Assembly: GCF_003711225.1 (NCBI RefSeq)
Contig: NZ_CP031030.1
Location: 4,712,001 to 4,776,000, forward strand
Source of the DNA: Runella sp. SP2
GTDB taxonomy: Bacteria > Bacteroidota > Bacteroidia > Cytophagales > Spirosomataceae
DNA length: 64,000 nt
Direction: 5' to 3'
The notes beneath the pieces are model-generated. The model saw only the letters and a list, made by a program, of their open reading frames with translations. It was not told the DNA's origin and searched no databases. Numbering within the stretch: position 1 is the stretch's first letter; the number at the start of each line of letters is the position of its first letter. A program made the translations under genes and the position numbers. This document shows positions 50 through 18,600 of the stretch, piece by piece.

Positions 50-1363
50 TCAATTCATTATTTTTTCTATCTCCTTTAGTTGCTGCTCGCCACACCCACG
101 AGAAAGAATTTTACCAGATTTATCTAATAGTATAAACGTAGGGAAACACCCCACACTCAGCTTCTCTACTAATTTTTCTGGATTCTTTTCATCATTTTTT
201 TCAAATTTATGAACCCAATTCATTTCTTTTTCTTCAATAAATTTCTTGACTTTTTCAATATCTTTATCATGTGCTATACTGATTAATTCAATTTTGTCTT
301 TGTATTTTTGGTAAAACGTTTTAAGTTTTGGTAGTCCAATTATACAAGGGCCGCACCAGGTCCCCCAAAAGTCTAACAATGTGTATTTATTTTTTCGTTT
401 ATTAATATCATACAATTGAATATTTATATCGTAAAATGGAGGTAAAATAATTTGATAACCCGTTCTATATCCTACTTCTACCGTTGAATCACTCCAAATA
501 CGCAATTTTAATGTATCTCCAAATTCAGAAGCTGAAATTATTTTTATTTTTGTATTCTTTTCAAAAACAAATGAATCCCCAATCTTAGGCACTGGCTGAA
601 TAGAAATATTCTTATAGTCAGAAGAATCGCTAAAAATTACATTTTCATTGGAATAATCACCTCCTTTAAAAAAAGTAAAAGGCAAAGTAACAGTATAATA
701 TTTTTCTCCTATATTTATTTTAGAAGTTTTTCTGTCGACAATAGTAAAAAAAACTGTAAGTAGCTCTTTTATTGAATCTCTAATTTGGTAAGATTTATCA
801 AATGGCCTAATTTTTATATTTGATTCTCTGTTGAAAATATTTTTACCATGATAGTATTCATACTTCGCTTTAAATGTCTTTAATGTATCCCAGTTTAATA
901 TTTCTTTTTTTTTATTAATGTCAAAAATTTGAAGTTCATCATCTGCAAAATCTAAATTATTATTACAATCACAAACAACAAATTTTTCCTTTCCTTTTAT
1001 GCCAGAAAATATATAAATACTTTGATTTACATATTTATCTGTCAATTTACTTTCGTCTATTTTATATACTTTTTTTAAAGCAATATAAGTAGAAGAATCT
1101 ATGTCTTTATTTATAATACGAGAATATAAACTCTGCTTTAATTGCATATCAATAACAGACACTGCAAACGTATCCAAGTCATTTAATATCCCCTTGAATT
1201 TTTTAAAAATATCTCTATTCGTTATTAGCCGAGCAGGAGAAGTAAACTTATTCCGATACAAATCACTTTTTGTAACCATTGCAAGAGTAACAGTATCTGC
1301 TTTTTGAGCAAAAATTTTTGTGCTTAAAATTAAAAGCAAAGTAATTATAAATATTTTTTTCAT
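50..1363 (-). CDS. TlpA-like exported thiol-disulfide oxidoreductase
   Basis: This is a 437-residue protein with an N-terminal signal peptide (hydrophobic segment ending IFAQ at about residue 20), so it should act in the periplasm. The C-terminal 130 residues are a thioredoxin fold with the redox motif WCGPC at about residues 336-340 and the cis-proline loop CFPTF near residue 408. The middle 300 residues match no family I can name; members with such an N-terminal extension are common in Bacteroidota. It is transcribed in the same direction as the two Cys-rich peptide genes just upstream, separated by 200 bp that contain a good promoter, so it may be co-regulated rather than strictly co-transcribed. 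Its likely job is reducing or shuffling disulfides, plausibly of the neighbouring peptides; that link is inference. Base composition is clearly more AT-rich than the respiratory genes further on, which suggests acquired DNA. Confidence 0.85.
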   Translation of the reverse strand: MKKIFIITLLLILSTKIFAQKADTVTLAMVTKSDLYRNKFTSPARLITNRDIFKKFKGILNDLDTFAVSVIDMQLKQSLYSRIINKDIDSSTYIALKKVYKIDESKLTDKYVNQSIYIFSGIKGKEKFVVCDCNNNLDFADDELQIFDINKKKEILNWDTLKTFKAKYEYYHGKNIFNRESNIKIRPFDKSYQIRDSIKELLTVFFTIVDRKTSKINIGEKYYTVTLPFTFFKGGDYSNENVIFSDSSDYKNISIQPVPKIGDSFVFEKNTKIKIISASEFGDTLKLRIWSDSTVEVGYRTGYQIILPPFYDINIQLYDINKRKNKYTLLDFWGTWCGPCIIGLPKLKTFYQKYKDKIELISIAHDKDIEKVKKFIEEKEMNWVHKFEKNDEKNPEKLVEKLSVGCFPTFILLDKSGKILSRGCGEQQLKEIEKIMN

Positions 1364-1397
1364 TTTTGGTTTACAATTTTTAACTAAGAAATTATTT

Positions 1398-1429
1398 CAA
1401 ATTTATTTTTTCAAAATACTATAAATCAA
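1398..1429 (-). promoter_or_regulatory. Promoter for the TlpA-like gene
   Basis: Read on the minus strand there is TAAATTTG (1398-1405), a match to the Bacteroidota -7 consensus TAnnTTTG, preceded after 21 bp by TTG (1427-1429). The start codon lies about 35 bp downstream. Motif match only. Confidence 0.45.
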
Positions 1430-1524
1430 TAATTTACAATCAAATAATAACTTGATTTATAAATATTGATTATCTTTGTTTTAGTAATATTAGCAGCTTG
1501 GAATCATAATAGAGCCTAGTTTTT

Positions 1525-1558
1525 ATAGGAGATATACCATTTAATGCATATCTCCTAT
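1525..1558. repeat. Inverted repeat after the peptide genes
   Basis: ATAGGAGATAT (1525-1535) and ATATCTCCTAT (1548-1558) form a perfect 11-bp stem with a 12-nt loop, 5 bp beyond the stop codon of the second peptide gene. On the minus strand it is followed by an A-run rather than a U-run, so it is a weak intrinsic terminator at best. It could instead stabilise the 3' end of the peptide mRNA. Confidence 0.5.
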
Positions 1559-1563
1559 TCTAT

Positions 1564-1803
1564 TTACGCATCACAACCTTTCTCATAGAGTCCACTGTCT
1601 CCACACCCACACCCGATATTATCATCAGCAAAACACCGTACACCCGATTCACATGAGCAGTCAACTTGTAGTCCAGTAGAACTAAGAGGACACGATGCAA
1701 AACATGTATTTGCTGCACCATATCCACCTTTTATACTTTTCATCTGCATTTTATTCAATTCATTTTCAACAAATTGAATAAGGATTTGTTTTAGATTTTT
1801 CAT
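1564..1803 (-). CDS. Cys-rich secreted peptide precursor with double-glycine leader (B)
   Basis: This is a 79-residue precursor. The ATG at 1803 is chosen because it starts a leader of the usual type; the open frame runs further upstream to 1893 but that part overlaps the preceding peptide gene. Residues 1-27 form an amphipathic leader with the motif MQMKSIKGG, ending in Gly-Gly at 26-27, the cleavage signal used by C39 peptidase-containing ABC exporters. The 52-residue core holds eight cysteines, including CSC, CGC and a C-terminal GCDA, an even number that suits four disulfides. The leader closely resembles that of the peptide gene 7 bp upstream, whereas the cores differ strongly. No homologue is recognised by name. 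Its neighbours (VKOR/DsbA fusion, TlpA-like protein) suggest oxidative folding. Toxin, signal or adhesive peptide are all possible. Confidence 0.75.
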   Translation of the reverse strand: MKNLKQILIQFVENELNKMQMKSIKGGYGAANTCFASCPLSSTGLQVDCSCESGVRCFADDNIGCGCGDSGLYEKGCDA

Positions 1804-1810
1804 AATTTTA

Positions 1811-2020
1811 TTATGTTGGTATGCAAAATTTTGTTTCTGTATCTGATTGACATCCACCTCCCAGATCTTCAAAGGTATAACAGCTTGTTCCACTACAACT
1901 TACAGATGGTAAAAGGCCACAATCATTTGTACAACCTGCAGCTTCATACCCTCCTTTAATACCCTTCATTTGTATTTTCGACAGAATACCGTCAGCTAGA
2001 CTAATTAGTATTTTTTTCAT
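1811..2020 (-). CDS. Cys-rich secreted peptide precursor with double-glycine leader (A)
   Basis: This is a 69-residue precursor starting MKKILISLADGIL. The leader ends IQMKGIKGG with Gly-Gly at residues 23-24, followed by YEAAGC. The 45-residue core has six cysteines spaced GC, DC, SC, SC, GC, FC, consistent with three disulfides, and is rich in Gly, Ser and Thr, including a GGG run. The leader is shared with the next gene (QMKxIKGGYxAA), so the same exporter probably processes both. No peptidase-containing ABC exporter lies in this window; it must be encoded elsewhere or beyond the left edge. The tight tandem spacing suggests translational coupling and roughly equal production of the two peptides. 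Confidence 0.75.
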   Translation of the reverse strand: MKKILISLADGILSKIQMKGIKGGYEAAGCTNDCGLLPSVSCSGTSCYTFEDLGGGCQSDTETKFCIPT

Positions 2021-2101
2021 TTTGATTTGTCCTACGGAAACGCCGCATCGTTTTGAAAATTAAACAATTATTTTGTTTACTTGGCCAAGTCACTTTCAGT
2101 A

Positions 2102-2338
2102 TCAATAAGCTATACGTACATAACGATTAAAACCACCTAAGTTATACTTTCAGCTAAATAGACAATCCATTTTCCTTCGAGTTGTTACTGATAATTCAAA
2201 CTCTTCCGATGGATTTCAATCACAAATGGTTATTGTACTTGGTATAGTTTGATTTCGTAATGATTCTACTATTTTATCTATATTTTTTGTACTCTTCCAA
2301 TTAAAAAGTACAATTTTAATGTCGTTTTTCTCATTTTT
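2102..2338 (-). pseudogene. Decayed family 2 glycosyltransferase remnant
   Basis: The 352 bp between the GT1 gene and the peptide genes has no intact gene. One minus-strand frame from 2338 reads IKIVLFNW, then IVESLRNQTIPSTITICD, an in-frame TGA, NPSEEFEL, and after a second TGA, KYNLGGFNRYVRIAY and a third TGA (2102-2104). The order of a beta-strand start, a QT...ICD strand end and an NLGGFxRY segment resembles the N-terminal 80 residues of family 2 glycosyltransferases. There is no start codon in frame and the catalytic half is gone. I read it as the relic of a second glycosyltransferase of this locus. The resemblance is from memory of the family, not a search. Confidence 0.5.
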
Positions 2339-2372
2339 CTATTTTGACAACTAAATTACAACTTACTTATCC

Positions 2373-3668
2373 CTATTTATTTGTCACAGCATCACTTATA
2401 AAATAAGCCTTTATTTGTGAAATTTTGGTACGATAAGCAGAATTGTTGAGAAGATTTTCAATTTTAGCTTTGAGTACTTGAGGAGTTTCATTCCTTAGAT
2501 TGCCCTTGAGTCCCAAGCCATGATAGACTACCCGTGCCGCATTGCCAGGCTGGTCTATTTTTAGATTGAGTGGATAAACCAACATTGGAACTTCGGCAAG
2601 AACACACTCTTTAATACTGTTAAGTCCACCATGCGTTATCATCAAATCACAATGGGGCAATAGCTCCTTTTGAGGTACCCATTCATAAACGCGTAAAGTA
2701 GAGTTACTGGCTTTTAATTTTTGTCCCAACGTACCTGCCGATATGATTAAAAATACATCAGGAAGATTTTTGTGCACCTCTATTACTTTCCTTAAAAAAA
2801 CAATTGCGGCCTGAAAATCAATGGTTTCAAGCGTACCCAACGAGCAAAATACAATACGGTAATTTTGTTTGATGGCTTTTAATTCTTCCCAAAAGGGCCA
2901 TGTACTTCTCTTATTTTCACCAATATTATACCATATATGTCGCTCTCGAGGCAATAGTTTTTTCCACGAATATTCTAATACATTTGGGCAAAGAATCTGC
3001 GTTGAGACTTCGTTCATACCCAAATAGGAAATATTGGCATAGTTGAATAACTTTTTAGGGTCAAGCTTATTTTGACGGGCGATACGTTCCAAAAAATACG
3101 CATCATCCTTACCCAAATAAGCAACTTTAGTAAATAGCCCTTTTGTTCTCTTCGCTGCTTGATATCTCCACCAAAGTAGATTTGCCCAACAACGATATAA
3201 TAAAGAATCCTTAAAAACAGTGTCACAAGTCATGGGCGGAATACCATCGTATTGGCGTACCGAAAGCTTTGTTTGTACCAACTCAACAGAAATACCAAAG
3301 CGTTTCAAGAATACATAATAATAACCCAAGTGTGATTCAATATAAATACAATGAGGCCGTTGTTGTTTAACAATATCCTCAATTGCATGTACTTCTTCCA
3401 AGAATGAACGATAGCGTTTTTTAACAAAAAGAGGATTTAGCCAACTACTCAACAGCACTGCTAACCACACTTTGAGGCTTTTAATATAACTTTCTTTTAC
3501 ATACCTCAAAGGTAGTGTTTCGTAACCCAAACCTTGAGCATAAACTTGTAGGTTGGGGGTAACCGTAACTAGAGTACGATAGCCCTCTTGCTCCAAATAC
3601 TGCCTCAGTCCATTACAGGCATTGTAATGGCTCGAATAAGGTAGGATTATAAAAAGAGCCGTTTTCAT
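2373..3668 (-). CDS. GT1-family (UGT/MGT-like) glycosyltransferase
   Basis: A 431-residue glycosyltransferase of the GT-B fold, the usual length for the macrolide/UDP-glycosyltransferase group. The N-terminal half starts with a hydrophobic strand and a Ser-His-containing loop (YSSHYNACNGL), expected for acceptor binding. The C-terminal half carries the family signature: EWVPQKELLPH near residue 325, then THGGLNSIKE, and a downstream DQPGNAARV segment that contacts the nucleotide sugar. It has no signal peptide, so it should act in the cytoplasm. It lies 29 bp downstream of the C39-like/VKOR/DsbA gene in the same direction, so the two are probably co-transcribed. The context suggests glycosylation of the peptide precursors or a cell-surface acceptor; the acceptor cannot be read from sequence. 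Glycolipid or natural-product glycosylation are alternatives. Confidence 0.85.
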   Translation of the reverse strand: MKTALFIILPYSSHYNACNGLRQYLEQEGYRTLVTVTPNLQVYAQGLGYETLPLRYVKESYIKSLKVWLAVLLSSWLNPLFVKKRYRSFLEEVHAIEDIVKQQRPHCIYIESHLGYYYVFLKRFGISVELVQTKLSVRQYDGIPPMTCDTVFKDSLLYRCWANLLWWRYQAAKRTKGLFTKVAYLGKDDAYFLERIARQNKLDPKKLFNYANISYLGMNEVSTQILCPNVLEYSWKKLLPRERHIWYNIGENKRSTWPFWEELKAIKQNYRIVFCSLGTLETIDFQAAIVFLRKVIEVHKNLPDVFLIISAGTLGQKLKASNSTLRVYEWVPQKELLPHCDLMITHGGLNSIKECVLAEVPMLVYPLNLKIDQPGNAARVVYHGLGLKGNLRNETPQVLKAKIENLLNNSAYRTKISQIKAYFISDAVTNK

Positions 3669-3697
3669 TTTTGTTCGTTTTTTGTTAAACGATTCAT

Positions 3698-5383
3698 TTA
3701 TGTTGATTCGGCCAAATCCGTAGTAAAGTATTGCATAAGATGTGACGCTCCTGTAAGTCCATATAATTCAGGGAGTCTTTTCCCATTCATAAAGAACGTC
3801 GGTGTTCCTTCAATATTAGCCACTTTTGCCCACTTGCAGTGAGCTTCTATTATACTGTCGGGCACAATAGACACATCGGCAAGATACTGTGCCGCCCATG
3901 CGTCGTAGCTTTTTGTAGTTTGGGCGTACCAAGCCGTCATAGCAGCCCCCAAACCCTGCGAGGATACGCCTCCAATGGGTGTTTCAATACCATTTATAGC
4001 TCCTATTTCGGCAATAAATAGGCTTGTCATATGTTTAGCTACTTTTGTCTTACGGCCATCGGGGTCGTGACATACAGCAAAGATAATTTGGGCTTTGAGG
4101 TTTGGATTTTCGGCCAATACCTCCTCCAATTGTGCATGAGCATTGGCACACGGTCCACAATAAGGGTTGGTCACCATCGTAATGGTATGCTCCGCTGCGG
4201 GGTTTCCCAAAACAATCGGCTGTAAATCGGCAGGTATGGGTGGCATTTGTTTTTGCTGCTTGAGCAATGCTTCAAACAACACAGGGTTGTTTTTAAACTT
4301 CCGTAATTCTCGCTGCCATCCGTCAGCTTGTTTTGATTTCAACAGCAATGGTTTGATAATAGGCCAGAGGAGGATAGGAAGCAGAAAAGAAATCCACAGT
4401 CGATAGTCCATAGTCGGCAGTAGCTGTAGGGTGTTTTCTTCCATCATCTCCCAACTTCCAACGGCTACTTCAGCCCAAATCATCACCTGCACCGCCACAC
4501 ACAACGGACACCACTGCTTGGCCACTCGCCACTGGTACCAGATAGACCAAAAAGTGTAAGGTAAAGCCAAGAATGACAAAATGTCGAGGGTAGATTGCAA
4601 AATGTCGAATTGGGTTTCTTTATGCCCCATTACTAACGTTATCCATCCTCCCATAAAGTAAAAAAAGCCTATTTCGCTCCAACCTAACCATGAGGTAATT
4701 TTGGCAGCAGGGGAAGTCAGAATATGGTTACAGTCGGTTTTTTGGTTGATTCGACAAAGAGAATCGGTAAAGTCGTTGGTTTTTCCGTACTGTACTGATA
4801 AGAGCAAGGCAGTCAATATCACCCCAGTGGCTTTCAAGCCCAATAATACCCCTGTAGATACATCAGGACTTTGGAACATTCCTAACGCTGTCAGCATTAT
4901 AAAACCTACCAACACTAATGGCCAGCGGAGGCTTTCGAGTTGTTCTTTTTGGCGTTTTTTGGCATAATCGTTTTCACCTGAGGCTTCGTTGGGCTCGGCA
5001 ATGAACACCACACCCGACCATTTTTTGAGAAACTCTTCGCGGGATTCAGTAAAGCGTTTGCCTTTTTCGTTACGGTAGATGAAGACATCAGCAGTAGCAG
5101 ATTCTATTAGCACAAATGTGCCTCCATTGGTACGCAGGTGCGCTATATAAGGTACCTGCAACAATGCCAACTGTTCGGCATCAATGCGCAGGGCGGCATT
5201 TTCAATGTGATAACGATCGAGGGTATCGCCCAAACTCAACAAACTGGGATAATCGGGATGCTGTTCGAGCGCAGCACGCAAGCTAGTAAGTGTAAGGTTT
5301 GGGTGTAGGTTACGTAGATACCCCCAAGCTACTCCAAGTAAGTTTTCTCGATCGGTAAAAGAGTTTAGTCGTAGAGCCATCAT
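3698..5383 (-). CDS. C39-like / VKOR / DsbA fusion: membrane disulfide-forming enzyme
   Basis: A three-part protein of about 561 residues. Numbers here count from the furthest upstream ATG (5407); I prefer the ATG at 5383 or 5380 because a -7 box overlaps the upstream one. Residues 20-135 resemble a C39 peptidase domain (HPDYPSLLSLGDTLD, then YIAHLRTNGGTFVLI) but lack the catalytic Cys near the start, while the His is present. Residues 160-355 are a vitamin K epoxide reductase domain with several membrane segments, loop cysteines C218 and C226 and the active CPLC at 300-303. Residues 390-560 are a DsbA/thioredoxin domain with CGPC at 417-420 and a cis-Pro GTPTFF. VKOR would reoxidise the DsbA domain with quinone, which then oxidises substrate peptides. 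The dead C39-like domain may hold double-glycine leaders (inference). Confidence 0.9.
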   Translation of the reverse strand: MMALRLNSFTDRENLLGVAWGYLRNLHPNLTLTSLRAALEQHPDYPSLLSLGDTLDRYHIENAALRIDAEQLALLQVPYIAHLRTNGGTFVLIESATADVFIYRNEKGKRFTESREEFLKKWSGVVFIAEPNEASGENDYAKKRQKEQLESLRWPLVLVGFIMLTALGMFQSPDVSTGVLLGLKATGVILTALLLSVQYGKTNDFTDSLCRINQKTDCNHILTSPAAKITSWLGWSEIGFFYFMGGWITLVMGHKETQFDILQSTLDILSFLALPYTFWSIWYQWRVAKQWCPLCVAVQVMIWAEVAVGSWEMMEENTLQLLPTMDYRLWISFLLPILLWPIIKPLLLKSKQADGWQRELRKFKNNPVLFEALLKQQKQMPPIPADLQPIVLGNPAAEHTITMVTNPYCGPCANAHAQLEEVLAENPNLKAQIIFAVCHDPDGRKTKVAKHMTSLFIAEIGAINGIETPIGGVSSQGLGAAMTAWYAQTTKSYDAWAAQYLADVSIVPDSIIEAHCKWAKVANIEGTPTFFMNGKRLPELYGLTGASHLMQYFTTDLAEST

Positions 5384-5404
5384 AACGGAAATGATTTGAT
5401 AGTA

Positions 5405-5412
5405 CAAACATA
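5405..5412 (-). promoter_or_regulatory. -7 promoter element for the VKOR-glycosyltransferase genes
   Basis: The minus strand reads TATGTTTG here, a full match to TAnnTTTG. At the expected -33 position (about 5432) there is no TTG; the first operator half-site TTATCA begins there instead. A transcript would start near 5398, so the gene should begin at 5383/5380, not 5407. Confidence 0.5.
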
Positions 5413-5432
5413 ACTAACCATCTCATACCTTC

Positions 5433-5472
5433 TTATCAGGATTTTTGATAAAATTATCAGTTATTCTGATAA
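5433..5472. promoter_or_regulatory. Tandem operator-like inverted repeats
   Basis: Two copies of TTATCA-N7-TGATAA (5433-5451 and 5454-5472) sit side by side with a 21-bp period, two turns of the helix. Each is a perfect 6-bp dyad, and their inner arms make a third dyad across the centre. They lie directly upstream of the -7 box of the VKOR-fusion gene, where a -33 element would be. The best candidate ligand is the XRE regulator encoded on the other side of the same intergenic region. Confidence 0.6.
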
Positions 5473-5655
5473 AATAAAACTATTCTACCTTGGTAAAATT
5501 ATATTTATAGCCATTTTGACGTATCTTTTCTTCACTTTGTATCGTTTTTTTTACCGTTTGATAAGTTTTTCAACTAAATATCTTATTTACGTTTTTTTTT
5601 AGTTTTATTTGTAATTACAACACTCTACCCTGCAAAAGTAAAATAATAGAACCCA

Positions 5656-5674
5656 CTTATCTATCATAAGATAG
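5656..5674. promoter_or_regulatory. Nested dyads upstream of the XRE gene
   Basis: CTTATCTATCATAAGATAG contains CTTAT/ATAAG and CTATC/GATAG dyads and lies 56 bp before the XRE start codon. It shares the TTATC core with the tandem repeats at 5433-5472, suggesting autoregulation. A minus-strand -7-like TACTTTTG (5633-5640) lies just inside. The rest of the 5408-5729 interval is AT-rich with no gene. Confidence 0.4.
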
Positions 5675-5729
5675 CTGAGGAAGTATGGCTTTGGCAAAAT
5701 CATTAGACCACATCTAATTTTTATACGGT

Positions 5730-6059
5730 ATGAGCATTGGTGAAAAACTACGAAAACGACGTTATGATCTCGGAAAAACGCAAGAATGGGTTGCTTTTGA
5801 GTTGGGTAGTGCCATGAAAGTAAAAGTAAGCCAGCCAACCATCAACAATTGGGAAAACAACAAATCTCACCCCTCACTCTTTCAATTACAGGCATTGGCC
5901 ACAACGCTTCGCACTAGCGTATCCTACTTCATTTCAGAAACAGAAACAGAAACAGAAAAATGGCGTAAGTTAGCTGAAGAATACGCCGAACGCTGCCGAA
6001 TGCTTGAAAAAATGAATGTGATGTTACTAAAAGAAATTGAGCAGCTGCGCGGTGAATAA
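5730..6059 (+). CDS. XRE-family helix-turn-helix regulator
   Basis: A 109-residue cytoplasmic DNA-binding protein. Residues 1-65 are a helix-turn-helix of the Cro/CI type (SIGEKLRKRRYDLGKTQEWVA, then KVSQPTINNWENN). Residues 70-109 form a predicted coiled coil with heptad-like Leu/Met spacing, suitable for dimerisation. The two are joined by ETETETE, encoded by four copies of CAGAAA at 5935-5958. It is divergent from the peptide-maturation genes and separated from them by operator-like dyads, which makes it the likely controller of that locus. A perfect terminator hairpin follows the stop codon. Whether it activates or represses is not readable; the missing -33 box on the target promoter favours activation. 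Confidence 0.85.
   Translation: MSIGEKLRKRRYDLGKTQEWVAFELGSAMKVKVSQPTINNWENNKSHPSLFQLQALATTLRTSVSYFISETETETEKWRKLAEEYAERCRMLEKMNVMLLKEIEQLRGE
5935..5958 (+). repeat. Four in-frame CAGAAA hexanucleotide repeats
   Basis: Four perfect copies of CAGAAA lie inside the XRE gene. Slippage would add or remove two residues (Glu-Thr) without shifting the frame, changing the linker between the DNA-binding domain and the coiled coil. Confidence 0.85.
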
Positions 6060-6135: not shown

Positions 6136-8520
6136 CTATAAACTCAGGATTTTGATTTCAGTACGGCGGTTTTGTTGGTGCTCTTCTTCGGTACAACCAA
6201 TGCCGTCTTTGCACTTGTTGACGAGTTTGCTTTCACCGTAACCCGCCGCAATAATCCGCTTTGAATTAACGCCTTGTTTTACAATGTAAGCCACCGCCGA
6301 TTTTGCCCGCTGCGTTGAGAGCGTTTTGTTGTATTTGGCCGAGGCACGGCTGTCGGTATGTGACCCAAACTCAATCTTCATTTTCGGGTATTTTTTCATT
6401 AGGTCAACCAACTTATTAAGCTCTACCGTTGCGTCTGAACGAATATCCCATTTGTTGAGGTCATAGTAGATGTTATCAATTTTGATGACATCACCTTTTT
6501 CAAACATCGTAATGTTGGCCTCGGTCGTTTCGCCACCTTTGACTTTGCTACCCATCGTACCCAAGTTATCTTTCATAGCTTCAATCGAGTAATCACAACC
6601 AATAGGCACCTCAAATTTATAGCTTCCGTTTTCGTCCGTCACCGACTCTTGGGTCGAGCCGTCACATTCGTTGTGGAGCAATACTTTTACGCCAGGAATC
6701 GGTTTACGTTCTTTTTGCGTCGTTACCAACCCACGCAACGTAAAGGTCTTAGGCCCCGTATTTTTAGGCTTTGCTTTGTCGAGCGGGATTTCCAATTTTA
6801 CCAGCTCCGAAATATCCAAGTCTTTGGTGGTAAAATTGCGGGTATTGTTCAAATAGCCTTCACTCGACGCTTTAAACACAAAATCAATGTCGCTATCCAA
6901 GCACAAACGAAGGTTTCCTTCGCTGTCGGTTGTCATGGTTTTTGACTCTGGCGCGCTTTCGTCTTTGCTAATGACTTCTACGTCCACGTTGGCCAAGGCG
7001 TTCTTGGTTTCGGCGTCAAATACGTTTACAATAATATCTTGACAAGGGTCTAGCGGCCCCGAACGCTCAAAACGATACAAATCGTCGTCGGCACCACCGT
7101 TGCGGCGGTTACTGCTGAAAAAGCCACTCTTACGCTCACCGTCAGTAATAAGTCCAAAATCGTCTTTGGTTGAGTTGATAGGCTCACCAAGGTTTTTTGG
7201 TTTTTTGGCCATTACGCCTTCGATAAGTTTGGCATAAAACATGTCCAGTCCACCAAGTCCTGCATGACCATCTGAGGAGAAATACAAGTTTCCTTGCTCA
7301 TCGGCAAACGGGAACATTTCGTTGCCTTTGGTGTTTACGGCTGGGCCTAGATTGACGGGCACCGACCAATTGTTATTTTCGTACTTGCTGACGTAAATAT
7401 CGGTTCCACCAAAACCACCTGGCATATCTGATACAAAATACAACAGCTTATCGTCCTTCGACAAAGCAGGATGCCCTACCGAATATTCGTCGCTGTTGAA
7501 GGGCAGTTCTTTGATTTTTCCCCAGTCGCTGCCTGTTTTATCGGCGATGTACAGTTTCAATTTATTCACACCATCTTTACTCGTTTTGTACTTGCCATCC
7601 AAGTAATTATTCCGAGTAAAGAGCATTTTGCTTCCATCTTTAAAGAAAGCCACGGGACCTTCGTGGTATTTTGAGTTGATGGCTTTCCCCATGTTTTGCG
7701 ATTCAATTTTTGCATTTTGGAGGGGATCAGGTTTTCCATTACTCGTTACTTTGAAATTCCCTGGTGTATTCGAGTCGTTGGCTGTTCTTTCGGTATATTC
7801 ATCCGCACCAAGCAAATACACGCCTTTTCCTTTGGCAGCTCTTGCGGTCGTTTCCGAACCACCCACACGGCTTGTTTTAGCGGAGTTGACCACCGACAAA
7901 TCAGGAATTTCGTACAAATCCAAAAACGCGGTTTGGTTCCAACCGTACGTTCGTTTGATGTTTACACCTTCATTTCTTGAAGACACAAACACCAAGCCTT
8001 TTTTATAATAGGTAGGGCTAAATTCTGCTCTATTGGTATTTATATTATCGAGAGACTCAATCTTATAACTTGTTTTATTCTTTTTAAGCTTATTTACGTC
8101 GCCGTAAAGCTTCGTAAATTCTTTGCCACGGTTGTCGTCTTGTTGTGCTTGGCTGTAGCGCTCATACATGTCTTTTGCCTCATCATATTTGCCATTGCTT
8201 GCCAATGCCTGGGCGTAGTACAAATAGCTACTTGCTTGACTTTTAGGAATACTTTTTGTTTCTCCAAACAAAAGTCGATACACACGTTCGGCGTTTTGGG
8301 TATCTCTAATTTGGTGATAGCTATGCCCTAGTTTGACGAGTGTATTTACTTTGGTAGAGTCTTTTAGGTTGTCTTTTAATGACTGCTCATAAAGCTCGAT
8401 AGCCTTTGAATAGGCCATCATTTCGTATTGGCGATTTGCGTGACTCAACGTCGTCTGGGCCTTCACTTCAACACATGCAAGCGCAACTACCAATAGAGTC
8501 GATAAGATAGACGTCTTCAT
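6136..8520 (-). CDS. PorE-like OmpA-family protein (TPR, PD40, CarboxypepD_reg, OmpA_C)
   Basis: About 794 residues from the ATG at 8520, which begins a signal peptide (KTSILSTLLVVALA...EVKAQ). TPR-like helices follow at about 25-130, then a TolB/PD40 propeller at about 150-450 with repeats such as LSKDDKLLYFVSDMPGG and GNLYFSSDGHAGLGG. Two carboxypeptidase-regulatory-like beta-sandwiches come next at about 480-640, then a C-terminal OmpA peptidoglycan-binding domain (GSHTDSRASAKYN, STQRAKSAVAYIV). This order is that of PorE, a T9SS component thought to link the secretion machine to peptidoglycan. It is the last gene of a three-gene unit with porP and the giant adhesin. Many Bacteroidota have several such paralogues, so it may be a dedicated partner for this adhesin rather than the core PorE. 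Confidence 0.88.
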   Translation of the reverse strand: MKTSILSTLLVVALACVEVKAQTTLSHANRQYEMMAYSKAIELYEQSLKDNLKDSTKVNTLVKLGHSYHQIRDTQNAERVYRLLFGETKSIPKSQASSYLYYAQALASNGKYDEAKDMYERYSQAQQDDNRGKEFTKLYGDVNKLKKNKTSYKIESLDNINTNRAEFSPTYYKKGLVFVSSRNEGVNIKRTYGWNQTAFLDLYEIPDLSVVNSAKTSRVGGSETTARAAKGKGVYLLGADEYTERTANDSNTPGNFKVTSNGKPDPLQNAKIESQNMGKAINSKYHEGPVAFFKDGSKMLFTRNNYLDGKYKTSKDGVNKLKLYIADKTGSDWGKIKELPFNSDEYSVGHPALSKDDKLLYFVSDMPGGFGGTDIYVSKYENNNWSVPVNLGPAVNTKGNEMFPFADEQGNLYFSSDGHAGLGGLDMFYAKLIEGVMAKKPKNLGEPINSTKDDFGLITDGERKSGFFSSNRRNGGADDDLYRFERSGPLDPCQDIIVNVFDAETKNALANVDVEVISKDESAPESKTMTTDSEGNLRLCLDSDIDFVFKASSEGYLNNTRNFTTKDLDISELVKLEIPLDKAKPKNTGPKTFTLRGLVTTQKERKPIPGVKVLLHNECDGSTQESVTDENGSYKFEVPIGCDYSIEAMKDNLGTMGSKVKGGETTEANITMFEKGDVIKIDNIYYDLNKWDIRSDATVELNKLVDLMKKYPKMKIEFGSHTDSRASAKYNKTLSTQRAKSAVAYIVKQGVNSKRIIAAGYGESKLVNKCKDGIGCTEEEHQQNRRTEIKILSL

Positions 8521-8622
8521 AATTCCAAAATTTGGGTAAAGAAAAAGGTATATTCCCCTGTTGGCGTTGCAATACCCCTTCATGAAGAATATACCCTTAA
8601 CTAGATTCTAACTAATAAACCC

Positions 8623-9627
8623 TTAGAAATAACGTGGAGTAAGAATCTTACTCTTGCTGAATCCGAATTCGTAACGCAGCATGATTTCGTGGGTTGGGAT
8701 GTTCAAAAACTTACGACTTTGATTGAGGTTGTTACGAGTCCAGTCGTACGAGTATCCCAATCGGAATTGATCAGAAAGCTGAAGCTCAATCATTCCTACG
8801 AGTGCGTCGCCTTTCATGATGCTACCATCAGGAAGTTGCTGAATTTTGCCCGCATAAGTTGAAAAGCGATTGTGACGATACGACACCCCAAAAGCGATAC
8901 GATCGTTGAACCACAAGTTCATGTTTCCATCCAACGATAGGCCCGCGCCATTTACGTAGCGAACCATCATTGAGGGTTTGAGTTTAACCGAGTTACGGCC
9001 TACGACAAACCCACCCATTGCGTACAAGTGACGACGTACTTTCGCACGTTGGTCGTTGTCATAATCATTCAAATTGTTCTCAATCAAATAAGGTACTGAC
9101 ACCCCGAGGTATGAGCGGTCGTTGCTCAGGTAAATACCCGTACCGAAGTTTGGCAGAATTTTCGAGATGTTACTAGCAAAAGCAGGATCGGATAAGTTAT
9201 TTCCTAAATCTGCCTTGGCCAAATCCCAGCGAAAATTCATGGCCCCACCCTGCAAACCTAGTGCCAAAGTTGTACGTTCGCCAACTTTAATTCGGAAAGC
9301 ATAAGAAAGCATCGCACCTGTCCAGTTTTCGAGACCAATTTGGTCGTTGAACAACTGCAAGCCCAACCCTACTCTTTCGCGGTTTACGGGCATATCAATA
9401 CTGAAAGTTGCGGTTTGGGGTGCTCCTGTCATTCCGCCCCATTGGTTACGGTATAGTGCAGTTGCACTTAGCACGTCACGACTCCCAGCATACGCGGGGT
9501 TCAAGGCCATCATGTTAAACATGTACTGCGAGAACAACTTGTCCTGCTGGGCCCAGGTTTTACTGCTGCTAATCAGAGCGATTAGCAGCAGTAAGAACGC
9601 ATACTTTTGTTTGATGAGGTTGATCAT
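8623..9627 (-). CDS. PorP/SprF-family type IX secretion membrane protein
   Basis: 334 residues with a signal peptide ending TWAQ at about residue 26, directly followed by the family hallmark QQDKLFSQYMFNMMALNPAYAGSR. The remainder is an outer-membrane beta-barrel of the PorP/SprF type, ending in alternating hydrophobic strands and a C-terminal aromatic (RYF). SprF-like proteins are needed for secretion and surface attachment of the neighbouring large adhesin with a type B C-terminal domain. The gene starts 5 bp after the adhesin stop codon and is 102 bp upstream of the PorE-like gene, so the three form an operon. Confidence 0.92.
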   Translation of the reverse strand: MINLIKQKYAFLLLLIALISSSKTWAQQDKLFSQYMFNMMALNPAYAGSRDVLSATALYRNQWGGMTGAPQTATFSIDMPVNRERVGLGLQLFNDQIGLENWTGAMLSYAFRIKVGERTTLALGLQGGAMNFRWDLAKADLGNNLSDPAFASNISKILPNFGTGIYLSNDRSYLGVSVPYLIENNLNDYDNDQRAKVRRHLYAMGGFVVGRNSVKLKPSMMVRYVNGAGLSLDGNMNLWFNDRIAFGVSYRHNRFSTYAGKIQQLPDGSIMKGDALVGMIELQLSDQFRLGYSYDWTRNNLNQSRKFLNIPTHEIMLRYEFGFSKSKILTPRYF

Positions 9628-9632
9628 CGTTA

Positions 9633-12600
9633 TTAGCGGTTAATGGTCATAAATCGACTTGACTTCTTAATCTCGCCGCCGTTTTGGTCAATCAGAACTA
9701 CGTTGTAGAAGTAAGTTCCAGCAGGGATGCTCTGATTACTTGTTCCAATACCTACGTTTGATGTACCTTCCCAATCGTTGTTATAATCGTTGTTACGATA
9801 CACCAAATTCATCCAGCGGTTATAGATTTCTAATACAATCTTCGTGCCAGATGGGTGACGAATGACAAATTTATCATTGATACCGTCGCCGTTTGGTGAG
9901 AAACCTTCTGGGATAAACATACCGCCATCCGAAGGAATCACAATTGGAGTAAACTCAGACTCTGCTGCCCCTGTTGGGTCGTTGTCGTTGTTCAAATCTG
10001 GGTTCAGACCGTTTGTTGACAAGTCTGTTACCGTAGTTTGACCAGCGAGGGCCGTTCCAAGAGCACGGTTTTGGTAAGGAGTCAAACGTCCATCCGTTGT
10101 CACATTGATTGTGAAGAACAACGAGTCAGTACGTCCACCTGCCAAACGGCTTTGTTCTGCAATCAAGAGATTAACATCACGAAGACCATCAAAGTCAGGG
10201 TTGATACGTAGTGTGCTTGAATCATTTGCCGTTGGTGTACCAACCAATTGATAGCTTGCGCCAGTCAATGAGCCATATACTTTCGACAATGAGTCAGATA
10301 CCTGAACGTTCGTCAATGTACCCGTTCCGTAGTTTTTAAGGATGATACGGTACGTGATGTTCAAGCTACCGTCGCCTTTGCGCAAGGTATCTTTGATAGA
10401 CATCGCAAGACCGAGCAATCCTTTACCTGGAGTCGAGTTAAGCGATACTGGTGTCGATTCGCTGTTATTACGTGGATCAAGGTCATTGTCAGGGTCAGCA
10501 TTTGAACCTACCGTTGACGTATCCGCCGTTGCAACCCCTGCTTGGGTGAGTGCCGAACCGATCGCAATGTTATTGAACGTTGTTACCGAATCAGGGTTGA
10601 ACAACGATACAATTACTGCAAGGTTGATTTTGCGAGACGCACCTTTTGGCAATGAGCTCAACGAATCTACCAACATGTTTGTAAGAAGCCCTTGACCTGT
10701 GTAGTTAGATTCTACTACGAATCCTTCGTCTGCAGTCACAAGTGGCTTACCAATAATCGCCGCTTTGTTTCCAAATGTAAGACCTAAGTCGTCTTTTACT
10801 TGAACCTTTGCAAGGTCATTTGTACCCAAGTTCGTCACAGTAATTGTGTATGGAATTTTGAAAGTTCCATTTTCGAGCAATACTGGTGAACCTGCTGACT
10901 TAGACAAACCAATCAAAGTACTTGGCAAATCGAAACGTACTGCTGTAGAAGTGCTTGATGGGGCATCCACCACTGTACCTTTGTTTGACACATCAGATAC
11001 TGGTGTTCCGCTTCCATCGCCACTTGCTACTACATTACCAGCAAACGGTCCGTAGTTGCCATTAGGCTTGATATTTACAACTACTGTTATTACGTCCTCA
11101 GCACCTACTGCAAGTGCACTTCCAGTGCCTAAGATGTTCTTATCAGTCGTTCCGTTGTAGTTGGTATTTGGAACCAATGTGCTTCCACTAGCTACTGCTG
11201 GTGCACCTACTACTGTATAAGTAGCTGGTGAAACAATTTGGCTAGTTAAGCTATCCGCAATTGCTACATTCGTAAGTGGCACATTTCCTACGTTTTTAAC
11301 CGTAATCTTGTACGTTACGTCATAGCTTTCATCACTTCCTTCGCCTTTCTTCGTGATTTTATCAACCGCAAGCGCAACACCGATAGCTGGGCTAACTGTA
11401 CCATCGCTTACTACGATACTTACTGAAGATTGGTTGTTTGAAGTAGCTGGGTCAACTTGGTCAGCATACGTAATCAAGGCTTTGTTTGTCACTTGGTTAC
11501 CTGCTTTGATTGCTTTCGCTACGACAGTCAATGTAGCCGAATCTCCCGATGCCAACGTTGCAATGCGTGTTGTAAGTGTACCGTTTGATGCTGTCATTCC
11601 TGAAGTAGAAACCACTTCGAGTTCAGCTGGCATCACGTCACGTACATCCACGTTAGTTGCCGTATGAGGGCCACCGTTTTTCACTACAATTTTATACGTT
11701 ACTTGCTCACCTAAGCTTACCACCGACTTGTTAGCCGTTTTTGCAATGCTTACGTCTGAACGAAGTGTGTCAGTAGCACAGTCAAAGATTTTCACTTCAA
11801 CTGCGGCTGGTGCACTGTAGCATCCATCTTTCTTGTAGTAGATATAGTAAGTTCCAGCTCCAACTGCTTCTGGTGTTCCGACCAAGCAAGTGCAAAGGCG
11901 TTCAGCTGCCGAACGGAATTCCGTGGTGTAGTTTGAACCACCTTCGATCGCTTTTGTCAAATCCACGGTAGTACTTGGGCAAGTATTACGCATGTTTTTC
12001 ACGATTGGCGTTGGTACCGACTTCACTACTACAGTAATGTAAGCGGAGTTCACTGAGCAACAACGTTTAGCGTCCACCAAGGCGTAAGAGTAAGTACCTG
12101 GCTCAGTTACATTCCACTGTCTGATACCATCAGAAGCAGGGAACAACACTTTACCATCCTTAAACCATTTCACTTGGTAGCCTTCTTCGCTTGCTTTCAA
12201 TTTCACGGTGTCGCCTTGGCAGATAGTAATTGTTTGTGGCAATGTATCTGCTTTAAGCGTACCGTTTACGATGATTTGAGGTCTGAATTTGATACCTTCA
12301 AACACCAACTTCAAGTCATCTTTTCCTGCAACACACTTACCATCACCATCAGGATCGTTGGTGGTAAGGGTGAGTATTACGTCACCCTTAATCAAGTCTT
12401 CCAACGATGGATAATAAGTTGCATCAAGTGCAAGAGCGTTGCTGAAACGACCCGTACCGTTTGTTGTCCAAACCGCACTTGTCGCTACCCCACCAATCTT
12501 ACCATTGAGTTTGTATTCAAGAGCCGCGCAGATTGAAGCATCTGCACCTGCATCCGCCGTAGCTGGATTAGTTTCGCATGGCGTTGTTTCGCAAGATGAA

Positions 12601-15600
12601 ATCTGTACGTAAATCGCCACACCGTCGCTATAGCAGCCTGTTGTCGAGCGGAAGAATGCGTAGTAAGTACCTGCTACACCTACTGCCGATGGGGTTTCTA
12701 CCAACGGTGAGCTTGGTGTATTTCCTTTACGGAATTCAAGTACTAGACCCGAACCTGCCGTGTAGTTCTTAACAGCCGTTGCCAAATCAACCGTCTTCAC
12801 TGGGCAAACATTCGCGATGTTTACGACCACTGGAGTTGTTACTTTCGGCGCTACTGAGACGTTCACTGGGTTCGATGCTACACTCTTACAAGCTTCATTG
12901 TTGCAGCAGTATGCTACATAAATGGTGCTTGCCGCTGGAACAATCGTGATTGAACTTCCAATTTGGCCATTTGACCATTGGATGTATCCATTACACTGGC
13001 TCGTTGTTGAGAGCGTTACTGACTCACCGAAGCACAAGCTTGTTTTCGATGCTGTAATCACTGGAGCTTCTGGTTTGCCAACCGTAATTGTGATTGGCGT
13101 AGAAGCCGAGCTAGTACAGTTACCTACTTTGCATGTGGCAGTGTAAGTAGTAGTTGTTTCTGGCGTTACGGTAATTTCGCTACCTGTAGCTCCATTTGAC
13201 CATACTACTGTTCCTTCGCAGCCTGACGCTTTCAAGCTTACTGATTCGCCTTTGCAAATCAATGTATTCGATACCAAGATTGTTGGTGCATATACTTTTG
13301 TAACGACCACAGTCAAGGTATTCGATGCTTCGCTTGTGCAATCACCTTTCTGACATACTGCTGTGTATGTAGTTGTACCTACTGGATTAACAGTGATGCT
13401 GCTTCCTGTTGCACCATTTGACCAGTTGATTGTACCACCTTCACAACCAGTTGCAGTAAGCGATACTGGTGTACCTTCACAAATAACCGCCGCATTTGCA
13501 GCAATCACTGGTGCTGTGCAAGTCTTCACAGTTACTGTTACAGGAACTGATGCCGAGCTTACGCATACGCCAACTTTACATACTGCTGTGTAAGAAGTTG
13601 TTGAAGTTGGTGTTACAACAATGCTTGCTCCCGTCTGACCATTCGACCAAGTGATTTCGCCTTCGCAACCTGTTGCAGTCAACACTGAAGACTCACCTAG
13701 CTTGATGCTTGATGGTGCTGCTGTTACGGTTGGAGGTGTTACTGGAATCACCTTGATGGTGTAATCAGCCGATACTGGGCTTGAACACTCACCTACTTTA
13801 CAGATGGCAGTGTAAGTAGTAGTTACAGCAGGTGTAGCTACGATAGCTGGTCCTGTTTGACCTGTTGACCACTGAACTATACCTGCGCAGTTTTTCACTT
13901 CTAGCGTTACGCTTTCACCTGGGCAGAGTTTGTCAGTGCTACAAATTACCACTGGTTTCTCTGGCGCAGGTACTACTGTTACAGTAGCCGTAGCTGGAGC
14001 GCTTTCACACTTACCTACTTTACAGATTGCTGTGTAAGTAGTTGTCGTTGTTACTACTGGTTCAATGCTAGCGCCAGTAGCTCCTGTGCTCCAAGTGATT
14101 GTTCCACCGCTACATCCTGCTGCTGTCAACGTCACTTTTGTACCCGCACATACTGTTGATGATGGGCTTACAGTGATTGTTGGCGCAGTTGCGTTTTGAC
14201 CTACTGTTACTGTTACGCTTGCTGGTGCGCTGTCGCACTTACCATTTACGCGGCAAGAAACTGTGTAAGTCGTTGTCGTTGCTGGAGATACTGTAATACT
14301 TGCTACACCCGTTGCTCCTGTGCTCCACACATACGTGCCTGAGCATCCTGAAGCTGTGAGTACTGAGCTTTCACCTGCGCAGATGCTTGTGTTAGAAGCA
14401 ACTACGGTTGGTGCTGCACCGGCTGTTGTTACAGTTACCTTCACTTTATTTGATTTAGCACTTTCGCAAGTACCTACTTTACATACCGCTGTGTACTCAG
14501 TTGTAGAGGCAGGGCTTACTACGATTGAGCTTCCAGTCATACCGTTTGACCAAACGATTGTACCTTCACAAGTGCTGCTTGTTGTAAGCGTTGTGCTCTG
14601 ACCTGCGCAAATCAACGTTGGTTCCGCTGCAATTGTTGGTGCAGTTGGGTTACCCACGGTGATTGTCACTGGAGCAGATGGAGCGCTTACGCACTTACCA
14701 ATTGTACAAGTGGCAGTATAAGTAGTTGTAGAAGCTGGTGTCACCACGATGCTTGCACCTGATGCGCCATTTGACCACAATACAGTACCTGTACAACCTG
14801 CTGCTGTCAAGGTTACGCTTGAGCCGTTGCAAACTGTAGGTGCACTAGCCGTCACTGTTGGTGCCGAAATTGGCGTTACAGTAATCACGTAGTCTTTCGA
14901 GCGTGACTTACATCCACCATTGTTACAAACTGCCCAGTAAGCGGTTGTTGTAGATGGTGTTACTACAATCGCTGGACCAGTTTCGCCAGTTGACCATTCT
15001 ACAACTCCCGTGCAGTTTTTCACTTCGAGTGTTACGCTTTCGCCTGGACAAACTTTGTCTGTGCTACAAATAACCTCTGGTGTTGGACCGCCTGGTGTTA
15101 CAGTAATTGTTACACTTGCTTTTGGACTTTCACACTTACCGATTTTGCAATAAGCAGTGTAAGTTGTCGTCGTGCCTGGTGTTACTGTGATTTGAGCGCC
15201 TGTTGCACCTGTGTTCCAGTAAAGTGTACCTGCACAATTAGCAGCTGTCAATACAACTGAGCTTCCAGCACAGATAGTCGTTGAAGGACTAGCTGTGATT
15301 GTTGGCGTCGTTGGTGTATTTACATAAATCGTGATTACGTTTGATGGCACGCTTTCGCAACCATTTTTCTTACATGTTGCCGTGTAAGTAGTAGTAGTTA
15401 CTGGACTAACAGTGATGCTAGAACCTGTTGCGCCATTTGACCACATAATTGTTCCACCTGCACAACCTACTGCATGAATTTCTGTAGCTTCACCTGGACA
15501 GATATTCGTAGTAGCACATGCCAAGATTGGTGGTTCTGGTTTCACGCAATCCACTCTAATCGTTACACTTGACGTGTCATTAGACGTCTTGCTTGGATCG

Positions 15601-18600
15601 TTGTCTGGGCTCTTCACAATCGCCGTGTTAGTAATTGTACCAACCGCGTTGATTGTTGCACGGATTTTCAACGTACGGTTTGCACCATTTGCCAAGTTTC
15701 CGATTGTCCAAACACCAGAAGCAGCATTGTACTCAGCAGCTGGATCTGCACTTACAAACGTCAATGACGCTGGTAATACATCGCTTACTGTTACACTTGT
15801 AGCATTTACTGGACCGTTGTTAGAAGCAACCACGTTGTACGTAATTGTTTGACCAACTGTGTAAGGACCTGCTTCTACTACTGATTTTGCCGCTGCTAAG
15901 TCAGTGAATTTAATACAAGGCTTGATAGTAAGTTTCAACAATGCACCATTGCTGTACTCACCGCATTGAGCTACTTCAAACAAGAAGTACTCGCCTGATG
16001 TACATACTTTCGTTGGATCAGCTACTTGTGTACCAGGTTTGTGGTCAAAAGTAGTGTACCACTCGAAACGTCCACCTTCGGTACGAATTTCACTGTGGAT
16101 GAAGCTAGTCAAGTCAACACACTCGTTAGGACATGTATTTTCGCCCATGCCACCACAAGTTGGTGTTGGAGGAATTGCACATGGCACCTTCACGGTGATA
16201 ACCTCATCATCTTCATCGTCTTCTTTCGGTGTACCTGTACCGTTGCCTGGAGTTGAGTCAGGATCAGGTTGGTCAGACTTGCTTACTTGAGCAAAGTTCT
16301 TGATGGTTCCTGAACCAGTTACTTTTACTACAAACGAAAGCGAAACAGTTGCACCAGAATCAATTTGAGCAATTTTTCCAGTCAATACTGAACCTGTCAA
16401 TGTAAATGCAGCATCACCTGATACGTACTGCAATCCAGATTTCAATGTATCTGTTACTTCTACATTGGTAGCTTTTGACGGCCCACTGTTAGTTACTTTA
16501 ATAGTATAAGTAACGTTATCGTTCTGATTTGGCGTTTTGTTACTAACTGTTTTAGCCAAACTCAAATCAGCTGGACATCTCTTAATGGTTACCTCAGCCA
16601 ACGCACCATTGCTATATACACCACAAGCAGCTACTTCAAACAAATAGTATTTACCAGAAGCACATACTTTTGTTGGATCAGCAACCAATGGGTCAGTTGG
16701 GCGTGGGCCTGTGCGCCACTCAAACTTACCACCAGGCGTACGAATATCGCTCGAAATGTGTGCCATTAAGTTCACACAAACCTCTGGGCAGTCATTCGTA
16801 ATTGTACCTGTACAAGTTGGAGTTGGAGGAATTGGACAAGGTGCCAAGAATACTGGCTCGTCGTCATCATCGTCTTCACCACGGGTGAAGCCGTTGCCTG
16901 GCGTCGAATCCTTATCTTTCACAGTGTTGCCATTTCTATCCTTCGCATCTTTAATCTGTGCGTAGTTCGTTAGGCTTGTTCCTGTGAAGTTTGCATTTAC
17001 GCGTACCGTGATGTCAACCGAAGTAGTTGCACCTGGTGCCAAAGGCCCTGCAATCGCCGTGTTCAACGTCGCAATCTGACCTGCTGCTGTCCAATCTGCA
17101 TCTGCCAACGTCATGCCTACTGGCAATGAATCTGACAATACGATATTCGTCGCTGTCATCGAACCTTCGTTCTTCACTGTCAAGGTAAACGTTACCAAAT
17201 CCCCTGGAGCTACATTCGGGCTTTGACCTGATGCCAATGACTTAGCCAATGCTAGGTCGAACGTTGTTAAACCTGCATCTACTGTCAAATCACTACGTTT
17301 TTCAGGTGTCAATACAATTGGACCTGTTACGCCTGTGATTGGATCTGCATCACTATCTGTTACATCTGAACCAGTGTTTGGACGCAAGCTCAACTGACAT
17401 GTGTCTGGCAAGCTCTTCGTGTCAAACTGTACATAGTATGTTCCTACTGGCAAGTTGCTGAATAAGTACTGACCATTCACACCTGTCAACACTGAATCTC
17501 TCTTCGATACTGGGCCGTTCGCATTGCCTGTCCACAAAATCACCTTCACGTTTTGCACGCCTGGCTCTCCTGCATCCTGCTGACCATTGTCATTGCGATC
17601 TTTCCATACAAAGTCTCCAATGCTTCCAAGTGGTGTCACTTGAATTGGCTCGTCGTCATCATCATCTTCACCACGGGTGAAGCCGTTGCCTGGCGTCGAA
17701 TCCTTATCTTTCACAGTGTTGCCATTTCTATCCTTCGCGTCTTTAATCTGTGCGTAGTTCGTTAGGCTTGTTCCTGTGAAGTTTGCATTTACGCGTACCG
17801 TAATGTCAACCGAAGTAGTTGCACCTGGTGCCAAAGGTCCTGCAATCGCCGTGTTCAACGTCGCAATCTGACCTGCTGCTGTCCAATCTGCATCTGCCAA
17901 CGTCATGCCTACTGGCAATGAATCTGACAATACGATATTCGTCGCTGTCATCGAACCTTCGTTCTTCACTGTCAAAGTAAACGTTACCAAATCCCCTGGC
18001 GTTACATTTGAACTCTGACCCGATGCCAATGACTTCGTCAACGCTAGGTCGAAGTTGGTCAAACCTGCATCTACTGTCAAATCACTACGTTTTTCAGGTG
18101 TCAATACAATTGGACCTGTTACGCCTGTGATTGGATCTGCATCACTATCTGTTACATCTGAACCAGTGTTTGGACGCAAGCTCAACTGACATGTGTCTGG
18201 CAAGCTCTTCGTGTCAAACTGTACATAGTATGTTCCTACTGGCAAGTTGCTGAACAAGTACTGACCATTCACACCTGTCAACACTGAATCTCTCTTCGAT
18301 ACTGGGCCGTTCGCATTGCCTGTCCACAAAATCACCTTCACGTTTTGCACGCCTGGCTCTCCTGCATCCTGCTGACCATTGTCATTGCGATCTTTCCATA
18401 CAAAGTCTCCAATGCTTCCTAGTGGTGTCACTTGAATTGGCTCGTCGTCATCATCGTCTTCACCACGGGTGAAGCCGTTGCCTGGCGTCGAATCCTTATC
18501 TTTCACAGTGTTGCCATTCTTATCTTTCGCATCTTTAATCTGTGCGTAGTTCGTTAGGCTTGTACCTGTGAAGTTTGCATTTACACGTACCGTGATGTCA

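Follow-up and report, generated by a model that had tools for sequence, protein, structure and literature searches.

We describe a gene cassette in the 7.6 Mb genome of Runella sp. SP2 that, on balance, appears to make and export disulfide-rich, often glycosylated peptides from double-glycine (GG) precursors, the core being oxidized while the leader is bound and before cleavage and export. The cassette lies in a stretch of 64,000 nucleotides (the window, meaning this whole stretch) and encodes two tandem GG-leader peptides (6 core Cys in one, 8 in the other), a membrane protein (the fusion) joining C39-like, VKOR and DsbA-like domains, a GT1 glycosyltransferase (GT), a TlpA-like protein and a divergent XRE-type regulator. 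A preliminary description of the window had proposed that the fusion binds the leader and oxidizes the core; the anatomy of the fusion supports this well, with the amendments that its C39 part is catalytically dead and that oxidation is predicted to take place in the cytoplasm. With rather less confidence, we put forward a phylum-wide class of modified peptides, in which a leader-docked, inverted VKOR-DsbA protein may drive quinone-dependent disulfide formation in the cytoplasm before export, often with multi-step glycosylation by varied GTs to follow.

Recurrence of the peptides and the fusion

The fusion was searched for in 200 genomes of the window's family (Spirosomataceae), yielding matches in 70 genomes at E ≤ 0.001 and in 56 at E ≤ 1e-20; several genomes contain multiple copies, and one (G049) has three full-length ones. 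The family set of 61 loci consists of the window and 60 regions hand-picked among the fusion sites listed, and is thus a selection of all sites. As controls we used 40 C39-exporter loci from the same family lacking the fusion, also hand-picked among the matches listed. The exporter label is present in 39 of these, and two were known to have a nearby GT1 match when chosen, so the control count for GT1 is if anything high. An outside set was drawn from the best 80 of 298 named loci; scanning was limited to the 62 with a length of 12 kb or more, and leaving out 13 that belonged to the family set or its close kin gave 49 loci from Pedobacter, Mucilaginibacter, Chitinophagaceae and other Bacteroidota.

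The preliminary description had named a lack of co-occurrence in related genomes as what would speak against it; instead, the gene set recurs in the 61 family and 49 outside loci. Family loci contain a C39 exporter in 50 cases, HlyD in 49, GT1 in 36 and TlpA in 31 of 61, with a divergent XRE gene upstream of the fusion in 25, whereas GT1 and TlpA are each found in 2/40 fusion-less controls. The corresponding counts outside the family are 43/49 for the exporter, 38/49 for HlyD and 30/49 for TlpA. Genes of TolC type show the opposite trend, accompanying the fusion in 6/61 loci but the fusion-less exporters in 18/40. Judged on sequence counts, the gene set and its recurrence are more than chance.

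Cys-rich peptides were sought in two ways, identical cores being counted once. A first regular expression required hydrophobic residues at leader positions -4, -7 and near -12, so that leader percentages derived from it are partly built in; because it favours the leader type of the window, a second search dropped the leader motif and covered all sequence up to 5 kb away from the fusion or, in controls, from the exporter. The motif-free search recovered 59 cores with at least 4 Cys in 47/61 family loci, all 59 with an even Cys count, and 56 cores in 40/49 outside loci, 52 of them even. The controls gave 6 such cores in 6/40 loci, 3 of them even, and among small open reading frames (ORFs) of the background that reach 4 Cys, 551 of 827 have an even count, a fairer null than 50%. 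Results with the regular expression are similar: fusion loci hold 73 distinct cores and controls 53, of which 58 and 5, respectively, contain 4 or more Cys. At this threshold the counts are even in 58/58 family and 50/52 outside cores, and at a threshold of 2 Cys in 60/63 and 51/54, the three odd family cores having 3 Cys each. Most of the 58 (52) share the strand of the fusion at a distance of no more than 5 kb. Even Cys counts are the mark that full pairing leaves in a sequence, and they make a single S-linked sugar less likely.

In both window leaders, positions -4, -7 and -12 are hydrophobic, as in the C39 substrate leader described in PMC6363468, where these residues occupy a hydrophobic groove ~20 Å from the C39 active site. 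The same periodicity emerges from the 59 motif-free family cores, whose leaders are hydrophobic at -4 in 57, at -7 in 52 and at -12 in 57, compared with 0, 1, 0 and 0 at -6, -8, -10 and -11. One relative (L038) encodes a core that resembles, by eye, the 8-Cys core of the window. As a separate observation, a CCxxC motif lies near the core end in 13/63 peptides, all but one of which come from loci with a GT (12 of the 13; L043, L057, L061, L064, L070, L071, L096 and others).

Some of these leaders already carry the name bacteriocin-like in curated families, so that the peptides are of a known kind. NCBIfam NF047798 ('bacteriocin-like protein'), NF047792 (the CCPGW family) and TIGR04149 all share the type of Bacteroidota GG leader seen in the window. 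The window peptides fall below the NF047798 cut-off, which a peptide from L182 passes (31.5 against 23.5 bits), and they do not match NF047792. An assignment to the radical SAM targets of TIGR04149 was rejected, as the scores (21.9 bits for peptide 2, and 14.7 bits) are below the cut-off of 25 and no radical SAM enzyme was found among 16 proteins scanned (6 in the window and 10 neighbours), which likewise include no LanB, LanM or LanC.

The joint protein of C39-like, VKOR and DsbA domains is borne out by three Pfam matches above cut-off. An AlphaFold2 model of its 554-residue form, built with 50 homologues, has a mean predicted local distance difference test (pLDDT) score of 91.7, and its domains match the C39 peptidase domains of ComA and PCAT1 and ScsC/DsbA proteins in Foldseek; matches to full-length PCAT1, with a template modelling (TM) score of ~0.25, are meaningful only domain by domain. 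For the central part, PF07884 (VKOR) scores above cut-off and a profile search retrieves Synechococcus VKOR at E ~0.002. The redox motifs comprise the VKOR loop Cys pair, CPLC and, in the DsbA-like domain, CGPC. In the 54 aligned full-length fusions these are kept almost throughout (51/54 for each Cys of the loop pair, 53/54 and 54/54 for the CxxC, and 52/54 for each Cys of the DsbA CxxC). The catalytic Cys and His of C39, by comparison, are absent from all 54, with Asn replacing the Cys in 45, whereas aligned exporters retain the Cys in 46/48 (the other 2 being gapped) and the His in 48/48. A role as active peptidase was rejected on the strength of this loss. Dead C39 domains of HlyB-type exporters, termed C39-like domains (CLD), recruit substrate, according to PMC6363468.

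Membrane topology of the fusion

Six hydrophobic helices of membrane length are apparent from the model and from hydropathy. The VKOR Pfam match starts at residue 179 of the 561-residue form (172 of the 554-residue form), and that of Synechococcus VKOR at profile position 173; because these matches begin inside the second helix, the first (TM-A) is additional, and because the number of helices is even, the Cys loop falls on one side together with the C39-like and DsbA-like domains. Lys plus Arg residues in the short flanks come to 10.5 on this side and 0.78 on the opposite one, the former being greater in 50/50 sequences; as its flanks are also longer (~46 against 20 residues), the ratio in density is about sixfold.

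The comparison with canonical VKORs started from 30 loci, 14 of which gave a usable ORF; one of these (L229) is a fusion and was left out, leaving 13 from the same phylum. Lys plus Arg in the C-D loop amount to 1.77 in canonical VKORs and 0.22 in fusions, those in the D-E loop to 0.08 and 1.74, and the net charge of the Cys loop changes from -3.1 to +1.1. Of 102 full-length fusions (54 family and 48 outside), 95 could be scored and 7 did not fit the scoring motifs; TM-A is hydrophobic in 95/95, and the D-E loop, which precedes the CxxC, is net positive in 92/95. Under the positive-inside rule this charge pattern points to the shared side being cytoplasmic, so that the C39-like domain, the catalytic loop and the DsbA-like domain are predicted to lie opposite to the extracytoplasmic catalytic side of VKOR.

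The same cassette could instead operate with periplasmic oxidation during or after export, either with VKOR in its usual orientation and a TM-A that does not span the membrane or with the C39-like domain outside, an arrangement we regard as unlikely but deserving of attention. Characterized bacterial VKOR-DsbA systems generally act outside the cytoplasm, and the TlpA-like proteins look secreted. Against this stand the reversal of the loop charges and the consistent hydrophobicity of TM-A, together with an N-terminal domain that by eye has no signal peptide and the removal of leaders, which normally takes place at the cytoplasmic face. Also in favour of periplasmic oxidation is a clostridial VKOR-DsbA that complements an E. 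coli dsbA dsbB mutant (PMC12453122).

Glycosyltransferases and the proposed pathway

The window GT has UGT202A2 and an oleandomycin GT among its PDB relatives. Across the sampled loci, 30/38 GT1 genes lie less than 200 bp from the fusion on the same strand, and at least one of nine GT clusters is present in the same-strand run of 39/61 fusion loci, compared with 1/39 controls; two or more clusters are present in 19/61, and some operons carry three GT genes. The clusters comprise GT1 (UDPGT), GT2 types, which are present in some relatives, PLOD-type, Gly_transf_sug (which we take to be GT32), DUF6625 and GT25-like proteins. The GT25 label rests on Pfam Glyco_transf_25, which is above cut-off for L150 (26.5 against 24), below it for L185 (21.1) and without a match in the first member scanned; a PDB search with a GT25-like gene returned a chance-level match only. 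DUF6625 proteins occur, often in tandem, in cassettes of Pedobacter, Mucilaginibacter and Ferruginibacter (L159:13689-15377, L208, L210); their candidacy as GTs is weak, the model having a pLDDT of 76 and top Foldseek matches that are GT-A-type with TM scores of ~0.3. The repeated association with several GT families supports the earlier proposal that the peptide is decorated. GT1 itself was found in the family of the window and in none of the 49 outside loci.

Six steps can be proposed. The leader would dock on the dead C39-like domain of the fusion, whose DsbA-like domain, in an inverted topology, would oxidize the core Cys in the cytoplasm and pass electrons through the VKOR Cys to membrane quinone. 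GT1, or elsewhere other GT families, would then glycosylate the precursor in the cytoplasm, where sugar donors are found, Ser, Thr or Tyr being likelier sites than Cys in view of the even Cys counts. A C39 exporter with HlyD would cleave after GG and export the core; the channel of PCAT1, described by Lin et al. in 2015, is reportedly wide enough to pass small folded proteins. Secreted TlpA-like proteins would correct disulfides outside, and the XRE protein would regulate the system. That the peptide is the sugar acceptor appears plausible from the gene association, whereas disulfide correction by the TlpA-like protein, also part of the preliminary description, is a guess. Topology and sugar acceptor are the weakest links.

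Several considerations weigh against this pathway. Each of its steps is a prediction from sequence. The loci are related, which makes p-values descriptive, and the family and control loci were chosen by hand. No Cys-rich peptide was found by the motif-free search within 5 kb in 14/61 family and 9/49 outside loci. The topology derives from hydropathy and the positive-inside rule; alignment with canonical VKORs failed for the E-F loop, which gives no comparison there, and no VKOR structure is among the best 50 Foldseek matches listed. If TM-A does not span the membrane, the C39-like domain would be cytoplasmic and the DsbA-like domain periplasmic. Disulfides made in the reducing cytoplasm would have to last until export. 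As to the sugar, GT1 is absent from 25/61 family and from all 49 outside loci, so glycosylation is not universal. Other labelled GTs are in the run of 11 of these 49, two of which (L150 and L185) gain Branch and Glycos_transf_2 matches in single-gene Pfam scans. GT1 relatives also occur in genomes with no or a weak fusion match (G044, G114, G018), and peptides from loci with and without GTs do not differ clearly in Ser/Thr content. A difference in Tyr (p = 0.02, uncorrected among five residues) was set aside.

It is unlikely, in our assessment, that the GTs act on envelope glycans or in self-protection and leave the peptide alone. The incomplete distribution of GT1 among fusion loci would fit such a role, as would the macrolide-inactivating GTs among its distant relatives, which score below cut-off; the tight same-strand adjacency to the fusion argues for the peptide, as does the recurrence of GTs from other families as members of the operon. 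We consider it very unlikely that the fusion is a general cellular disulfide oxidase merely adjoining a bacteriocin-like operon: the window genome has no DsbB match and the fusion is its sole VKOR match, but matches at E ≤ 1e-20 in only 56/200 family genomes, sometimes in multiple copies, are unlike the distribution of a core enzyme, and the C39-like domain and the neighbouring genes recur with it. The least probable alternative, that the peptides are strict S-glycosylated glycocins, would account for GG leaders, disulfides, GTs and the GT2 types of several relatives, but the window GT is a GT1, and in loci that carry a GT all 43 cores with 4 or more Cys have even counts (two further cores in these loci have 3 Cys), as opposed to the 7 Cys of thermoglycocin.

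Gene organization and relation to known systems

Starting from the divergent XRE regulator, the minus-strand order of the cassette is fusion, GT1, the two GG peptides and the TlpA-like protein. The genes reported in the preliminary description are confirmed by ORF reading and Pfam matches (Table 1), except for a GT relic at 2021-2372, which was dropped after comparison of its longest likely piece with GT profiles and GT genes gave nothing significant.

Table 1. Features of the cassette, with coordinates in the window
Feature	Coordinates	Strand	Evidence
TlpA/ResA-like thiol-disulfide protein, 437 aa	50..1363	-	Pfam Thioredoxin_8 3.9e-18; WCGPC; signal peptide by eye
Double-glycine peptide 2, 79 aa, leader ...LNKMQMKSIKGG, 8 core Cys	1564..1803	-	ORF reading; TIGR04149 21.9 bits, below cut-off 25
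Double-glycine peptide 1, 69 aa, leader ...LSKIQMKGIKGG, 6 core Cys	1811..2020	-	ORF reading, leader search
GT1 (UGT-like) glycosyltransferase, without signal peptide by eye	2373..3668	-	Pfam UDPGT 1.1e-14
Fusion: dead C39-like domain (~residues 1-130), extra transmembrane helix, VKOR, DsbA-like domain	3698..5383	-	Pfam C39, VKOR, Thioredoxin_4 above cut-off
Divergent XRE-type regulator	5730..6059	+	HTH_3 2.6e-10

An intact C39 ABC exporter, absent from the earlier gene list, is encoded just beyond the window edge (L002:9809-12115) and looks active, its DCG and NHF motifs being present; the region past that edge also encodes HlyD, two further TlpA-like proteins and a TonB-plug/CarboxypepD protein. 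Between TlpA and this exporter (L002:12148-14977, left of the window) lie an exporter relic, in which the exporter 5′ end survives in degraded form (56/78 residues identical to the intact exporter), a remnant of an ISL3-like transposase, weak at 17.1 bits against a cut-off of 25.5, and genes for LicD and a cytidylyltransferase. The last two were dropped as cassette members, since the genes called in the other scanned loci include no relatives of either. As this stretch has been invaded, expression of the cassette in Runella sp. SP2 is uncertain.

PorP/SprF-like genes, forming one cluster named by eye, lie on both sides of the cassette (window 6136-21329; L002:2603-3541), and the same flanks encode an OmpA-like protein and a repeat protein of 3898 residues, surface-exposed by eye; the right flank is common to two other Runella loci (L041, L042). 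Some relatives have lantibiotic-dehydratase-like proteins (by eye) near the fusion (L162:11750-14515, L086:12961-13833), and given these neighbours some cassettes may modify the peptide further.

In bacteria, disulfide formation is taught to take place outside the cytoplasm. If the proposed pathway is correct, it would show how a cell can make a disulfide-bonded product inside a reducing compartment with a leader-binding, inward-facing, quinone-linked oxidase, and would offer a way to mine genomes for a large set of Bacteroidota peptides that are rich in disulfides and probably glycosylated. Among the literature matches listed, covering titles and the beginnings of abstracts with subscription journals largely outside, no description of the fusion with GG peptides was found. 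A mining study of ribosomally synthesized and post-translationally modified peptides in Bacteroidales names C39 exporters and glycosyltransferases, with no VKOR, thioredoxin or disulfide in its main text (PMC10352776).

Several known systems bear comparison with the cassette. The first, the HlyB-type CLD, shares with the fusion a dead C39 domain without the catalytic Cys, but sits on an ABC exporter and not on an oxidase (PMC6363468). The VKOR-DsbA/Trx fusions of Synechococcus and clostridia share the VKOR core, the loop Cys pair, the CxxC and a C-terminal thioredoxin fold; the window fusion differs by its N-terminal C39-like domain and extra helix, its reversed charges and its dedicated peptide genes. 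An inverted VKOR of the archaeon Aeropyrum pernix is credited, in the title of the report on it, with a topology by which disulfides form in two compartments, and is not known to have a C39-like domain or a dedicated substrate. Glycocins are found in Firmicutes hosts and are defined as a family by GT2-type SunS/ThgS transferases, whereas the window GT is UDPGT/GT1. Sublancin, glycocin F and thermoglycocin resemble the cassette in being C39-exported leader peptides with disulfides and sugar (here predicted) and with thioredoxin-like proteins nearby, as described in PMC12457901; there, the 7 Cys of S-glycosylated thermoglycocin comprise 6 that form disulfides and 1 that bears the sugar. They differ in their stand-alone thioredoxin-like proteins, in the odd Cys count of thermoglycocin and in that no leader-docked VKOR fusion is seen with them. 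Alongside these systems, the peptides are of a known kind, and the new part is the leader-docked, apparently inverted oxidase.

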